Source: Streptomyces pseudovenezuelae (GTDB lineage: Bacteria; Actinomycetota; Actinomycetes; Streptomycetales; Streptomycetaceae). Taken from it: 64,000 nt of DNA. Shown piece after piece: positions 16,650 through 22,816 of this stretch. Numbering within the stretch: the stretch's first letter is position 1; every line of letters begins with the position of its first letter. Position numbers and translations under genes: made by a program. The stretch is taken from positions 276,212 to 340,211 of the forward strand of contig NZ_KQ948145.1 of NCBI RefSeq assembly GCF_001513955.1, in the 5' to 3' direction. The notes under the pieces were generated by a model. It was given only the letters and a program-made list of their open reading frames with translations. It was not told the origin of the DNA and ran no database searches.

Positions 16650-16824
16650 GAACTCGTCAGTACCGGGCAAAGCAGCGCCTTGACACTTCGGCCTGCTGGT
16701 ACTCTGGCCGGGTCGTCGGGGCAGCACGCAGAAGCGTCGCGATCGAGCCCCGACGCCTTGTGAGACTCCCTTGCGGGAATGGATCGTCCCTTACGAGGGA
16801 CCGGCCGGAGGAGGTGGGGCTGTC

Positions 16825-16872
16825 ATGGATCGAAGTCGACCTGGTAGTACCACTCGTTCTTCCGGCCGCTGA
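16825..16872 (+). CDS. 15-aa small ORF in the corA leader (uORF1)
   Basis: ATG 16825 to TGA 16870-16872, encoding MDRSRPGSTTRSSGR. A strong GGAGGAGG ribosome-binding site lies 9 nt upstream. Only 5 of 15 codons end in G or C, including CGA twice, AGT twice, CCT, GGT and ACT, against over 90 percent in neighbouring genes. This pattern fits a regulatory leader rather than an ordinary protein. The stop overlaps the ATG of the next small ORF. Confidence 0.5.
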   Translation: MDRSRPGSTTRSSGR

Positions 16873-16952
16873 TGCAGCTCTGTGACTTTCGGCAACCGCC
16901 GCCTTTCACGTTCGCGTCTTCGTGCGGAAGAGCACTTCGTCGTTTTGCCTGA
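16872..16952 (+). CDS. 26-aa small ORF with a Pro-Pro-Pro run (uORF2)
   Basis: ATG 16872 overlaps the uORF1 stop as TGATG, so translation is probably coupled. The peptide begins MQLCDFRQPPPF. GC3 is about 54 percent, far below the local genes. Pro-rich leader peptides control Mg2+ transporter genes in enteric bacteria and mycobacteria, where low Mg2+ slows or destabilises ribosomes at Pro codons. The stop lies 176 bp before corA. Translation is not shown by sequence alone. Confidence 0.45.
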   Translation: MQLCDFRQPPPFTFASSCGRALRRFA

Positions 16953-17128
16953 TCTGTCTGATCTGTAGCAGTAGCTGAATCAGTACTTCAGCAACGAAGT
17001 CCGCCACCGCGATGGTGCGGTGCTCCCCGCTTTGTGGACGTGCCAAACACCCACAGCAGGACGTCCTCATTCCGGGTAGTTCCACCCGTCGCCGGGGCCC
17101 TTTGTTGCCCGTCACGAAGGAGCCTGCC

Positions 17129-18247
17129 ATGTCGATGATCCGTGACCTGCGTGCCGCCGTGCGCCCGTCGCGTCCCTCGCTGCGCAAGGACACCGGCGCG
17201 TACGACGCGACGCGCGACCCCTCGACGCCCTCGGCCGTCGTCGACTGCGCCGTCTACCGCGACGGCCGGCGCGTGGCGACCGACTGCCAGCTGGGCCCGC
17301 ACGAGGCGATGCGCCAGGTGCGCCGAGACGGCGGCTTCGTGTGGATCGGTCTGCACGAGCCGAGCGAGGCCGAATTCTCCGGCATCGCCAGTGAGTTCGG
17401 GCTGCACCCGCTCGCCGTCGAGGACGCCGTGCAGGCCCACCAGCGCCCCAAGCTGGAGCGCTACGACGACTCCCTGTTCACCGTCTTCAAGACCATCCAC
17501 TACGTCGAGCACGACGAACTCACCGCCAACAGCGAGATCGTCGAGACCGGCGAGGTCATGTGCTTCACCGGCCGGGACTTCTTCATCACCGTCCGGCACG
17601 GCGGCCAGGGCTCGCTCAGGGCGCTGCGCCACCGCCTCCAGGACGACCCCGAGCTGCTCGCCAAGGGCCCCTCGGCGGTGCTGCACTCGATCGCCGACCA
17701 CGTCGTCGACGGCTATGTCGCGGTCGCCGACGCGGTGCAGGACGATATCGACGAGGTGGAGACCGAGGTGTTCACGCCGGGGCGCGGCGGCAAGGTTTCG
17801 CGCGGTGTCGACTCGGCGCGGATCTACCAGCTCAAGCGTGAGGTGCTGGAGTTCAAGCGGGCCGTCGCCCCGCTGCTGCGGCCCATGCAGCTGCTCAGCG
17901 AGCGCCCGATGCGGCTCGTGGACCCCGACATCCAGAAGTACTTCCGGGACGTCGCCGACCACCTCGCCCGCGTCCAGGAGCAGGTCCTCGGCTTCGACGA
18001 ACTGCTCAACTCGATCCTCCAGGCCAACCTCGCGCAGGCGTCCGTCGCGCAGAACGAGGACATGCGCAAGATCACGTCCTGGGCCGCGATCATCGCCGTG
18101 CCGACGATGGTGTGCGGGGTCTACGGCATGAACTTCGACTACATGCCGGAGACGCACTGGAAGCTCGGCTATCCGGTGATCATGGCGATCACCGGAGTCA
18201 TCTGTCTGGGGATCCACCGCACCCTCAAGCGCAACGGCTGGCTCTAG
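17129..18247 (+). CDS. corA: CorA-family magnesium/divalent cation transporter
   Basis: 372 aa from ATG 17129, with GAAGGAG 7 nt upstream. An N-terminal cytoplasmic domain (1-310) with a long coiled-coil stalk is followed by two C-terminal membrane helices. The family signature GMN is at 333-335 (YGMNFDYMPE), and the protein ends in a basic RTLKRNGWL. CorA forms a pentameric Mg2+ channel gated by cytoplasmic Mg2+. The long leader and small ORFs suggest post-initiation control. Synteny matches Rv1239c. Confidence 0.93.
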   Translation: MSMIRDLRAAVRPSRPSLRKDTGAYDATRDPSTPSAVVDCAVYRDGRRVATDCQLGPHEAMRQVRRDGGFVWIGLHEPSEAEFSGIASEFGLHPLAVEDAVQAHQRPKLERYDDSLFTVFKTIHYVEHDELTANSEIVETGEVMCFTGRDFFITVRHGGQGSLRALRHRLQDDPELLAKGPSAVLHSIADHVVDGYVAVADAVQDDIDEVETEVFTPGRGGKVSRGVDSARIYQLKREVLEFKRAVAPLLRPMQLLSERPMRLVDPDIQKYFRDVADHLARVQEQVLGFDELLNSILQANLAQASVAQNEDMRKITSWAAIIAVPTMVCGVYGMNFDYMPETHWKLGYPVIMAITGVICLGIHRTLKRNGWL

Positions 18248-19748: not shown

Positions 19749-21035
19749 ATGGCAGCGGGAGCCCCCCGGATCTTCGTCTCGCATCTCGCCGGCGTCGCCG
19801 TCTTCGATCCCAACGGCGACCAGGTGGGCCGTGTGCGCGATCTGGTCGTCGTGCTGCGCGTGGGGCGCAGGCCGCCACGGGTGCTCGGGCTGGTCGTCGA
19901 ACTGTCCACCCGGCGCCGCATCTTCCTGCCCATGACCCGGGTGACGAGCATCGAGTCCGGACAGGTCATCACCACCGGCGTGCTCAACGTCCGCCGCTTC
20001 GAGCAACGGCCCACCGAACGCCTGGTCTTCGGCGAGCTCCTCGACCGGCGCGTCACGCTCGTGGAGAGCGACGAACAGGTCACCGTCCTCGACGCGTCGG
20101 TGCACCATCTGCCGGCCCGCCGGGACTGGGAGATCGACCGCGTCTTCGTCCGCAAGGGCGGCAAGGGCGGGGCGTTCCGGCGCAAGGGCGAGGCCCTGAC
20201 CGTCGAGTGGTCCGCCGTCACCGGCTTCACGCTGGAGGAGCACGGACAGGGCGCGGAGAGCCTGCTGGCCACCTTCGAGCAGCTGCGCGCGGCCGACCTC
20301 GCCAACGTCCTGCACCACCTCTCCCCCAAGCGGCGCGCCGAGGTGGCCGCGGCTCTGGACGACGACCGGCTGGCCGACGTACTGGAAGAGCTCCCCGAGG
20401 ACGACCAGATCGAGATCCTCGGCAAGCTGAAGGAGGAACGGGCCGCCGACGTCCTGGAGGCCATGGACCCGGACGACGCGGCCGACCTGCTCTCCGAGCT
20501 CCCCACCGAGGAGCAGGAGCGGCTGCTGAGCCTGATGCAGCCGGGCGACGCGGCCGACATGCGGCGCCTGATGGCGTACGAGGAGCACACGGCCGGCGGC
20601 CTCATGACCACGGAGCCGATCGTCCTGCGGCCGGACGCGACCGTCGCCGACGCGCTCGCCCGCGTCCGCAACCCCGACCTCTCCCCCGCCCTCGCCGCCC
20701 AGGTCTACGTGTGCCGCGCCCCCGACGAGACCCCGACCGGCAAGTACCTCGGCACGGTCCACTTCCAGCGGCTGCTGCGCGACCCGCCGTACACCCTCGT
20801 CAGCTCCATGGTCGACGACGACCTGCAGGCCCTCGACCCGGACGCGACCCTGCCGGTCATCGCCGGGTTCTTCGCCACGTACGACATGGTCGCGGCGCCC
20901 GTGGTCGACGACTCGGGCTCGCTGCTCGGCGCGGTGACCGTGGACGACGTGCTCGACCACATGCTGCCGGAGGACTGGCGGGAGACGGAGTTCGACGCGG
21001 AGGGAGCGGAGGGGGTGGCCGGCCATGACGCCTGA
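19749..21035 (+). CDS. Soluble MgtE N-terminal/CBS domain protein
   Basis: 428 aa from ATG 19749, with AAGGAAG upstream. Residues 1-150 form a PRC-barrel-like part (FVSHLAGVAVFDPNGDQVGRV). Residues 175-290 form the MgtE_N superhelix with repeated DVLEELPEDDQIEILG and DLLSELPTEEQERLL units. A CBS pair follows (residues 290-415; LMTTEPIVLRPDATVADAL is typical). The transmembrane MgtE channel domain is absent. The 3' end overlaps the DUF1003 gene by 11 bp, so the two are coupled. Synteny matches Rv1232c. Mg2+ sensing by the N-CBS part is known for MgtE; here it is an inference. Confidence 0.9.
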   Translation: MAAGAPRIFVSHLAGVAVFDPNGDQVGRVRDLVVVLRVGRRPPRVLGLVVELSTRRRIFLPMTRVTSIESGQVITTGVLNVRRFEQRPTERLVFGELLDRRVTLVESDEQVTVLDASVHHLPARRDWEIDRVFVRKGGKGGAFRRKGEALTVEWSAVTGFTLEEHGQGAESLLATFEQLRAADLANVLHHLSPKRRAEVAAALDDDRLADVLEELPEDDQIEILGKLKEERAADVLEAMDPDDAADLLSELPTEEQERLLSLMQPGDAADMRRLMAYEEHTAGGLMTTEPIVLRPDATVADALARVRNPDLSPALAAQVYVCRAPDETPTGKYLGTVHFQRLLRDPPYTLVSSMVDDDLQALDPDATLPVIAGFFATYDMVAAPVVDDSGSLLGAVTVDDVLDHMLPEDWRETEFDAEGAEGVAGHDA

Positions 21036-21639
21036 GCGCGAGACCTCGAACCGCGAGCGGGTGCCGTCCGGCGCCCGCGAGCGCACCCCGGCCGGCGCCA
21101 CGGCGACCGGTCGTCCCCGCACCCGCCTGGACCAGCCGCGCTCACCGCGGCGCAGGCTGCTCCCCGAGTGGGACCCGGAGGCCTTCGGACGGCTCTCCGA
21201 GCGGATCGCGCGCTTCCTGGGCACCGGGCGGTTCATCGTCTGGATGACGGTCGTCATCATCGCCTGGGTGCTGTGGAACATCTTCGCGCCCGTCGACCTG
21301 CGCTTCGACAACTATCCGTTCATCTTCCTCACCCTGATGCTGTCCCTCCAGGCCTCCTACGCCGCCCCGCTGATCCTGCTCGCGCAGAACCGGCAGGACG
21401 ACCGGGACCGGGTCAACCTCGAACAGGACCGCAAGCAGAACGAGCGGTCGATCGCGGACACCGAGTACCTGACCCGCGAGATCGCCGCGCTCAGGATCGG
21501 CCTCGGGGAGGTGGCGACCCGCGACTGGATCCGCTCCGAGCTCCAGGACCTGATGAAGGAGCTGGAGTCACGGCAGCACGACGGGCATGTCGTATTCCCG
21601 GCAGAACGGCCGCACGGGCGTGACGTAGACGACCACTGA
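21025..21639 (+). CDS. DUF1003 membrane protein
   Basis: 204 aa from ATG 21025. A basic N-terminus precedes two close membrane helices (residues about 70-90 and 97-125) with the conserved WxxxN and FPFIFLTLMLSLQASYAAPLI-type core. The C-terminal cytoplasmic helix, NLEQDRKQNERSIADTEYL, looks coiled-coil. Function unknown in the family. The overlap with the MgtE-N/CBS gene suggests the two proteins work as a pair, the soluble sensor supplying the domain that this protein lacks. Confidence 0.85.
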   Translation: MTPERETSNRERVPSGARERTPAGATATGRPRTRLDQPRSPRRRLLPEWDPEAFGRLSERIARFLGTGRFIVWMTVVIIAWVLWNIFAPVDLRFDNYPFIFLTLMLSLQASYAAPLILLAQNRQDDRDRVNLEQDRKQNERSIADTEYLTREIAALRIGLGEVATRDWIRSELQDLMKELESRQHDGHVVFPAERPHGRDVDDH

Positions 21640-21669
21640 CGGGGGTGCGGGGGGTGCCCGTGGCCGCCG

Positions 21670-21675
21670 TACCAT
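21670..21675 (+). promoter_or_regulatory. Candidate -10 of a leaderless promoter (mrp)
   Basis: TACCAT is 7 nt before the ATG at 21683. No ribosome-binding site is seen. Confidence 0.45.
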
Positions 21676-21682
21676 CGTCTGT

Positions 21683-22816
21683 ATGGCTAGCGAAGACGCG
21701 GTGCGCGAGGCACTGGCGACGGTGAACGACCCCGAGATCAACCGCCCCATCACGGAGCTCGGGATGGTCAAGTCGGTCGACATCGGCGCGGACGGGGCGG
21801 TCGCGGTCACCGTGTACCTGACGGTCTCCGGCTGCCCGATGCGCGAGACGATCACGCAGCGGGTGACGGACGCGGTCTCCGCGGTCGAGGGCGTCACCCG
21901 CGTCGACGTCACGCTGGACGTGATGAGCGACGAGCAGCGCAAGGAGCTGGCGACGGCCCTGCGGGGCGGTCAGACCGAGCGCGAGGTCCCCTTCGCGAAG
22001 CCGGGGTCCCTGACCCGCGTGTACGCGGTCGCCTCCGGCAAGGGTGGCGTCGGCAAGTCCTCGGTCACCGTGAACCTGGCGGCGGCGATGGCGGCCGACG
22101 GGCTCAAGGTGGGCGTCGTCGACGCCGACATCTACGGCCACTCGGTGCCGCGCATGCTGGGCGCCGACGGCCGCCCGACCCAGGTCGAGAACATGATCAT
22201 GCCGCCCTCGGCGCACGGCGTGAAGGTCATCTCGATCGGCATGTTCACCCCGGGCAACGCCCCGGTGGTCTGGCGCGGTCCCATGCTCCACCGCGCCCTC
22301 CAGCAGTTCCTGGCGGACGTGTACTGGGGCGACCTGGACGTGCTGCTCCTGGACCTGCCCCCCGGCACGGGCGACATCGCGATCTCGGTGGCCCAGCTGG
22401 TCCCGAACGCGGAGATCCTCGTGGTCACCACGCCTCAGCAGGCGGCGGCTGAGGTCGCCGAGCGCGCCGGTTCCATCGCCGTCCAGACCCACCAGAAGAT
22501 CGTCGGCGTGGTCGAGAACATGTCCGGCCTGCCCTGCCCGCACTGCGGCGAGATGGTCGACGTCTTCGGCACGGGCGGCGGCCAGACGGTCGCGGACGGC
22601 CTCACCCGCACGACGGGTGCGACGGTCCCGGTCCTCGGCTCCATCCCGATCGACGTACGTCTGCGCGAGGGCGGCGACGAGGGCAAGCCGGTCGTCCTGA
22701 GCGACCCGGACTCCCCGGCGGGGGCCGCGCTGCGGGGGATCGCGGGGAAGCTGGGAGGACGGCAGCGGGGGCTTTCGGGGCTGTCTCTGGGGATCACTCC
22801 CCGGAACAAGTTCTGA
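21683..22816 (+). CDS. mrp: Mrp/NBP35-family iron-sulfur carrier ATPase
   Basis: 377 aa. N-terminal MIP18/DUF59 domain (1-95) with the SGCPMRE motif (Cys51). Deviant Walker A SGKGGVGKSS at 118-127. Later LDLPPGTGD, and a conserved CxxC in GLPCPHCGE (Cys285 and Cys288) that would bind a 4Fe-4S cluster across a dimer. Mrp/ApbC proteins deliver clusters to apoproteins. In M. tuberculosis (Rv1229c) the gene is likewise near the MgtE-N gene. Confidence 0.93.
   Translation: MASEDAVREALATVNDPEINRPITELGMVKSVDIGADGAVAVTVYLTVSGCPMRETITQRVTDAVSAVEGVTRVDVTLDVMSDEQRKELATALRGGQTEREVPFAKPGSLTRVYAVASGKGGVGKSSVTVNLAAAMAADGLKVGVVDADIYGHSVPRMLGADGRPTQVENMIMPPSAHGVKVISIGMFTPGNAPVVWRGPMLHRALQQFLADVYWGDLDVLLLDLPPGTGDIAISVAQLVPNAEILVVTTPQQAAAEVAERAGSIAVQTHQKIVGVVENMSGLPCPHCGEMVDVFGTGGGQTVADGLTRTTGATVPVLGSIPIDVRLREGGDEGKPVVLSDPDSPAGAALRGIAGKLGGRQRGLSGLSLGITPRNKF

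Follow-up and report, generated by a model that had tools for sequence, protein, structure and literature searches.

The gene corA, encoding a CorA-like Mg2+ transporter, lies on the forward strand of a stretch of 64,000 nucleotides of Streptomyces pseudovenezuelae that was analysed as a whole (hereafter, the window). It is preceded by a leader of roughly 417 nt, the features of which are collected in Table 1. According to the original prediction, made from this DNA, the leader contains a 9-bp stem, a strong Shine-Dalgarno (SD) sequence within a hairpin, an ORF of 15 codons (ORF1) and an overlapping ORF of 26 codons with three Pro codons (ORF2), coupled to ORF1 by the sequence TGATG, and these elements would control the transporter gene. 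Such elements are indeed present in the window. The two arms of the stem, CGTCGGGGC (16714-16722) and GCCCCGACG (16747-16755), are predicted to pair with each other, the SD sequence is found inside a predicted hairpin, and the proportion of GC at third codon positions is low in ORF1 (0.33) and ORF2 (0.54) as compared with corA (0.95). The identity proposed for the downstream gene is borne out by its Pfam family and its GMN motif.

The leader folds more stably than its shuffled versions (z = -4.1). On its 5′ side, a TTGAC-N-CTGNTANNNT-like pattern is found in 67 of the 130 Streptomyces loci compared below. A generic sigma-70 scan returned no promoter, the spacer of the candidate TTGACA/TACTCT pair being short. 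The 5′ hairpin P0 is kept in at least 51/130 Streptomyces loci, as judged with a strict pattern. Its AGAA loop is conserved in many Streptomyces, together with an inner stem that shows compensatory variants (ACGC/GCGT, TCTC/GAGA, ATGC/GCAT, ACAC/GTGT and AGGC/GCCT). No Rfam family reached its gathering score anywhere in the window; with E values up to 10, only a microRNA hairpin model and a viral xrRNA model appeared, far under their thresholds. The Rfam covariance model of the M-box (ykoK) riboswitch found no match, so that the leader is not assigned to this class. On the 3′ side of corA, a Mg2+-linked cluster extends from 19749 to 22816. It comprises the genes of an MgtE-like protein with a CBS domain (19749-21035), of a DUF1003-like membrane protein (21025-21639) and of an Mrp-type ATPase (21683-22816), the names DUF1003 and Mrp denoting sequence resemblance rather than the outcome of a family scan.

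Table 1. Features of the corA leader region (positions refer to the window).
Feature	Position	Strand	Remarks
Promoter-like pair, TTGACA (16680-16685) and TACTCT (16700-16705)	16680..16705	+	Putative; presumed transcript start
P0, 5′ hairpin, 9-bp stem and AGAA loop	16714..16755	+	Predicted fold
P1, small hairpin GTCCCTTACGAGGGAC	16786..16801	+	RNAalifold stem with compensatory C-G/U-A pairs, 49 representatives
Segment A, SD of ORF1, GGAGGAGGT	16807..16815	+	Invariant in 130 Streptomyces loci
ORF1 (uORF), 15 codons, MDRSRPGSTTRSSGR, stop TGA	16825..16872	+	ATG or GTG start in 130/130 Streptomyces loci and 24/24 further loci
Codon 8 of ORF1, AGT (Ser)	16846..16848	+	AGT in 134/134 indel-free ORF1 sequences
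Segment B, GTTCTTCCG, codons 11-13 of ORF1	16856..16864	+	Complementary to A and C
ORF2, 26 codons, Pro-Pro-Pro	16872..16952	+	Judged outside the conserved system
Segment C, CGGAAGAGC, partner of B	16925..16933	+	GGAAGA in 112/127 loci
Segment D, GTGCTC	17020..17025	+	Could alternatively pair with GAGCAC in the 3′ part of C; predicted pairing
SD of corA, GAAGGAG	17116..17122	+	Conserved among aligned 3′ leader sequences
corA, CorA-like Mg2+ transporter, GMN motif	17129..18247	+	Pfam CorA PF01544, 187.8 bits, 3.5e-55

The distribution of the leader was studied by comparison of genomes. Of 150 Streptomyces genomes, 143 were hit by a DNA search with the leader, and 130 Streptomyces loci were retrieved and aligned. 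In every one of these loci, the element stands 5′ of corA, on the same strand (130/130). A covariance model of the core was matched in 16 of the 17 genera of the family that were sampled, some of the matches being weak. Outside Streptomyces, 24 further loci with corA downstream were obtained, 23 of which come from the same family (Streptomycetaceae), and ORF1 is found before corA, again on the same strand, in all of them. For 15 genomes of the family without a strong match to the model, the weak matches tested had no corA nearby, and the element may have been lost or may have diverged there. Conservation in related genomes had been proposed as a check on the two ORFs of the leader. ORF1 is kept in 130/130 aligned loci, beyond what chance would give, and in its conservation at the sequence level it recalls the short ORFs of other Mg2+-transporter leaders. 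ORF2 is considered further below.

Several features suggest that ORF1 is read as an ORF. In Streptomyces, it starts 8-10 nt past the SD with either ATG (98 loci) or GTG (32 loci) and comprises 14-31 codons in all 130 loci; outside the genus, the SD reads GGAGGTG in the 24 loci. In a frame test, a stop was always reached in the ORF1 frame no more than 18 codons beyond codon 13, as against medians of 37 and 30 for the other frames. Codons 4, 5, 6 and 9 show synonymous changes, the second codon position is the least variable one, and indels within the first ten codons are mostly multiples of three. Codons 1-9 mostly encode [MV]-[DH]-x-S-[RH]-[PS]-[CGA]-S-T. All through the family, the N-terminal core S-x-P-[CGS]-S-T is maintained, and the peptide is variable past codon 9. 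Acidic and proline residues are limited to Asp at position 2 and Pro at position 6, sometimes also at position 3, that is fewer than described for mgtL. Most codons of ORF1, and of codons 2-8 in particular, are rare in the neighbouring genes, where GAT represents 6/166 and CGA 4/208, and where AGT and TCT account for two and one of 116 Ser codons, respectively. The spacing between codon 8 and segment B is nearly constant, and that between the start codon and codon 8 is subject to in-frame indels.

The end of ORF1 shows a second type of conservation, at the level of the RNA. Every 9-nt window around ORF1 was scanned for pairing with the downstream leader, and a unique maximum was obtained at start +31, which corresponds to segment B. 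In 49 Streptomyces representatives, this peak lies at a mean of -5.7 kcal/mol relative to shuffles, as compared with about -0.6 for non-overlapping windows, and it recurs independently (-2.6) in the 24 loci outside the genus. The downstream partner, segment C, is marked by GGAAGA, found at a variable distance 3′ of ORF1 and about 60-150 nt downstream of B. The two partners change jointly: beside GCUCUUCCG:CGGAAGAGC, compensatory pairs are GCUCUCCCG:CGGGAGAGC in locus L171, GCUCUUCCCG:CGGGAAGAGC in L163 and UCGCUCUUC:GAAGAGCGA in the L071 clade, and GCUCU(A/G/U)CCCGGCC pairs with GGCCGGGAGAGC in L174, L196 and L197. Over 55 distinct variants, cognate partners were found to pair better than swapped ones (0/20000 permutations). 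The same holds for the other genera alone (7/20000), and three control windows were not significant. Among 75 distinct B/C combinations, standard pairs occur in at least 92% of cases at eight of the nine positions. Since B:C is mostly invariant within Streptomyces, most of the covariation comes from the other genera. RNAalifold run on the 85-nt core alone, a stretch outside which C lies, returned neither A:B nor B:C. In one clade (L030, L034, L036 and L038), a +1 frame change occurs after codon 9, yet the RNA sequence of codons 11-13 is kept, which argues that the RNA sequence of B is selected. Segment C may itself have another partner downstream, since, among the close Streptomyces group, windows of the C region find their best pairing downstream, a tendency that is weaker elsewhere. 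From comparison of the sequences, the element that carries the signal, overlooked in the original prediction, is the stretch of codons 11-13, contested between the SD of ORF1 and the conserved downstream site. What comparison of genomes shows is the conservation of ORF1 and of the core of its N-terminal peptide, the pairing of B with C and a gene order that does not change.

B is also the window that, in Streptomyces, pairs best with the region before the start codon (-2.2), and no signal of A:B complementarity was obtained in the other genera of the family. The A:B pairing is supported in part, by this Streptomyces signal together with a long complementarity found in Streptosporangiaceae (see below). 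Because B is complementary to both A and C, the two pairings are mutually exclusive at the level of the sequence. When the longest transcript of the window was folded, the two states were predicted within 1.5 kcal/mol of each other, in an order that depends on the chosen ends. The effect of a ribosome was modelled by holding unpaired the positions lying under it. With a ribosome on the start codon, the downstream pairing of B increased from 0.36 to 0.65 and the opening of the ORF1 SD (SD1) from 0.17 to 0.71. With a ribosome at codon 8, B paired with neither partner; as deduced from the size of the footprint, B would be hidden under a ribosome whose P site holds codon 8. In the same Streptomyces model, access to the corA SD was unchanged, at 0.32-0.35 in all states. 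Sequestration of the corA SD was rejected as the Streptomyces readout, as neither the scan nor the ribosome simulation gave a clear signal for it. No intrinsic terminator is predicted in the leader. Its base composition (C 0.33-0.41 versus G 0.27-0.28) gives no clear rut signal and is indecisive with regard to Rho.

A similar layout is encountered in a second family. Among the corA upstream regions L201-L220 of other families, examined with a simple SD-plus-ORF pattern, a uORF was recognised only in L210, L212 and L215, where it is of the Streptosporangiaceae type, and a search pattern built on these three sequences led to 38 named genomes. These are mostly Nonomuraea, with Streptosporangium, Planomonospora and Planobispora, genera that we take to be Streptosporangiaceae. 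In 36 of the 38 genomes, a uORF encoding M[NKST][PS]GDPSSTCS... (e.g. MNPGDPSSTCS) is followed by corA, the nucleotides included in the search pattern being conserved by construction and the rest of the peptide not. This uORF has 26-38 codons (L221-L258). The SD1 region GATTGGAGGTGGTC is complementary to GACCACTCCAATC (codons 19-23 of the uORF), and CCCGACC (codons 18-20) is complementary to GGTCGGG beside the SD of corA, with joint changes in L225 and L257. As the counterpart of C adjoins the corA SD in these genomes, translational control is suggested by the sequences. The cognate-partner test is weaker here (21/20000), and one control window was also low (229/20000), probably owing to relatedness. 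In many Streptosporangiaceae (L221-L258), a further hairpin, CCTCCACGC/GCGTGGAGC, is located just past the end of the uORF, after its stop codon.

Single corA loci of two further families carry a uORF with P-C-S-T (L183) or P-P-S-T (L194). At about 330-430 of L194, the uORF MQMSSDDSPPSTSNPLSTPSPLSTGTASSRRSESA before corA contains the P-x-S-T unit three times. Resembling sequences were also noticed in other contexts. A leader of similar type, containing the uORF VSPGGCSSNGRFLLVDA, occurs in another family of the class (L181, L182, L186, L187, L188, L192 and L195, at about 330 in the orientation of the match) and is located several hundred nt before a gene resembling that of the DUF1003-like protein of the window; in leaders of the L181 type, the uORF sequence GTGGACGC is complementary to the downstream sequence GCGTCCAC. 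Finally, at about 340 of L185, the sequence GGCTGTCATGGATCGAAGTCGACCGTGAAGT, which differs little from the core of the leader, lies within a sufB-like coding sequence and is read in another frame (GCHGSKSTVKC), probably a chance convergence in GC-rich codons.

The element is a real, family-wide uORF/RNA element before corA, apparently undescribed so far, and is best read as a switch. We consider it probable that the leader acts in cis and that translation of the short ORF1 decides which partner B takes, thereby setting the expression of corA. Pairing of B with the SD of ORF1 would close ORF1, and pairing of B with C would leave this SD open. A ribosome initiating on ORF1 would cover A, so that B:C would form. 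Once at the invariant codons 7-9, the ribosome would cover B, and C would become free to pair elsewhere. Expression of corA would then be set by the state of C and of the RNA 3′ of it. In such a mechanism, ribosomes would drive the switch and the signal would be Mg2+-dependent translation of ORF1. In view of the gene controlled and of the analogous systems, Mg2+ is a plausible signal. The readout in Streptomyces would be transcriptional, probably mediated by Rho, rather than a closing of the corA SD.

Other explanations have to be considered. As originally proposed, corA would be controlled by ribosomes stalling on the three successive Pro codons of ORF2, which is coupled through TGATG. ORF2 and its Pro-Pro-Pro run are present in the window. 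However, the TGATG sequence is found in about 27 of the 130 loci, where the second ORF is mostly ATG-TAG, a TAG codon usually coming directly after TGATG, and the Pro-Pro-Pro run is confined to the window and its two nearest relatives (L001-L003). The coupled ORF2 and its run are thus found no more often than chance would give. A pause at this run was discarded on the ground that it is not conserved beyond the nearest relatives, and control through it is extremely improbable. Thus, what holds of the leader-peptide control initially put forward is a conserved short ORF in a structured corA leader, and what falls is the role given to ORF2 and its Pro run. It may also be imagined that the signal is sensed directly by a riboswitch or by an RNA element that binds a protein, ORF1 being incidental or just an expression platform. 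The strong conservation of nucleotides around SD1 and CAGTAC, the structured P0 with its compensatory changes and the stability of the leader fold would fit such a sensor. The behaviour of ORF1 would not, since its start varies only between ATG and GTG, early stops are restricted to its own frame, indels mostly keep this frame and synonymous changes are present; moreover, no Rfam model is matched, that of the M-box included. We regard direct sensing as unlikely.

ORF1 might encode a small protein with a function of its own, linked to corA by nothing more than a common transcript, as its family-wide core and the relatives of this core in other families could suggest. However, the C-terminal third varies freely or is even out of frame in the L030 clade, the length ranges from 14 to 31 codons, B is preserved at the level of the RNA, and the ORF is always found in a corA leader, so that this possibility appears very improbable. 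Alternatively, an attenuation mechanism could respond to an amino acid, for instance to cysteine at codon 7, or to a scarce tRNA reading AGT. Codon 7 is TGC in 109/134 sequences, codon 8 is invariant and codons 2-8 are mostly rare, as would be expected. Nevertheless, codon 7 encodes Gly in the window itself and in 20/134 sequences, so that the Cys codons required in actinobacterial Cys-codon attenuators are absent there, and a Mg2+ channel is no obvious target of amino acid control. Attenuation of this kind is improbable.

In E. coli and Salmonella, the corA leader contains a uORF, corL, whose SD is located in a stem, and adopts two exclusive structures; termination is Rho-dependent and translation of corL is inversely related to corA (PMC11552253). 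The Streptomyces leader is similar in having a short uORF before corA, a putative stem that would sequester the SD of this uORF, two predicted exclusive structures and a uORF whose N-terminus is conserved and includes a single proline (PMC11552253). On the other hand, it belongs to another phylum, and its switching segment is inside the uORF, near the end, and pairs about 60-150 nt downstream. The likeness to corL is one of architecture. Alternative stem-loops and acidic residues are also found in mgtQ, located before mgtB (PMC8092293). As with mgtL of mgtA and mgtQ of mgtB, translation of a uORF would toggle alternative stem-loops before a Mg2+ transporter gene (PMC11552253; PMC8092293). Acidic or proline residues near the N-terminus of the uORF may be a further common point, as may MNPGDP in Streptosporangiaceae, but the beginning of ORF1 contains no more than a single Asp and one or two Pro, and CorA is the transporter concerned here. 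In M. tuberculosis, the M-box leaders contain an SD1, an anti-SD within uORF1 and rare codons (PMC12810186). The leader studied here shares these traits, its anti-SD being putative, as well as an actinobacterial origin and a presumed link with Mg2+ (PMC12810186). In contrast, no M-box was detected in it, and the gene under control differs, being corA here and pe20 or rv1535 in M. tuberculosis.

No description of a Streptomyces corA leader was found in the literature searched, the coverage of which mostly left out subscription journals. To our knowledge, little has been established about the control of Mg2+ in high-GC Gram-positive bacteria other than mycobacteria. It may tentatively be proposed that the element represents a previously undescribed class of uORF-gated RNA switches, occurring in several families of Actinomycetes and controlling magnesium import. 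In this class, the codons around P-[CSP]-S-T, with AGT at codon 8 invariant in indel-free Streptomycetaceae sequences, would set a ribosome pause, depending on which the uORF would close its own ribosome-binding site or pair nearer to corA, a layout that Streptomycetaceae and Streptosporangiaceae would have retained, each with sequences of its own. As about 95% of the sampled Streptomyces species have the leader, and as it combines a defined uORF with a defined long-range pairing, exact mutations can be tested. If it works like corL, translation-sensing control of CorA would have arisen in two phyla, or would have been maintained in both, and sensing of Mg2+ by the ribosome may be general for corA.
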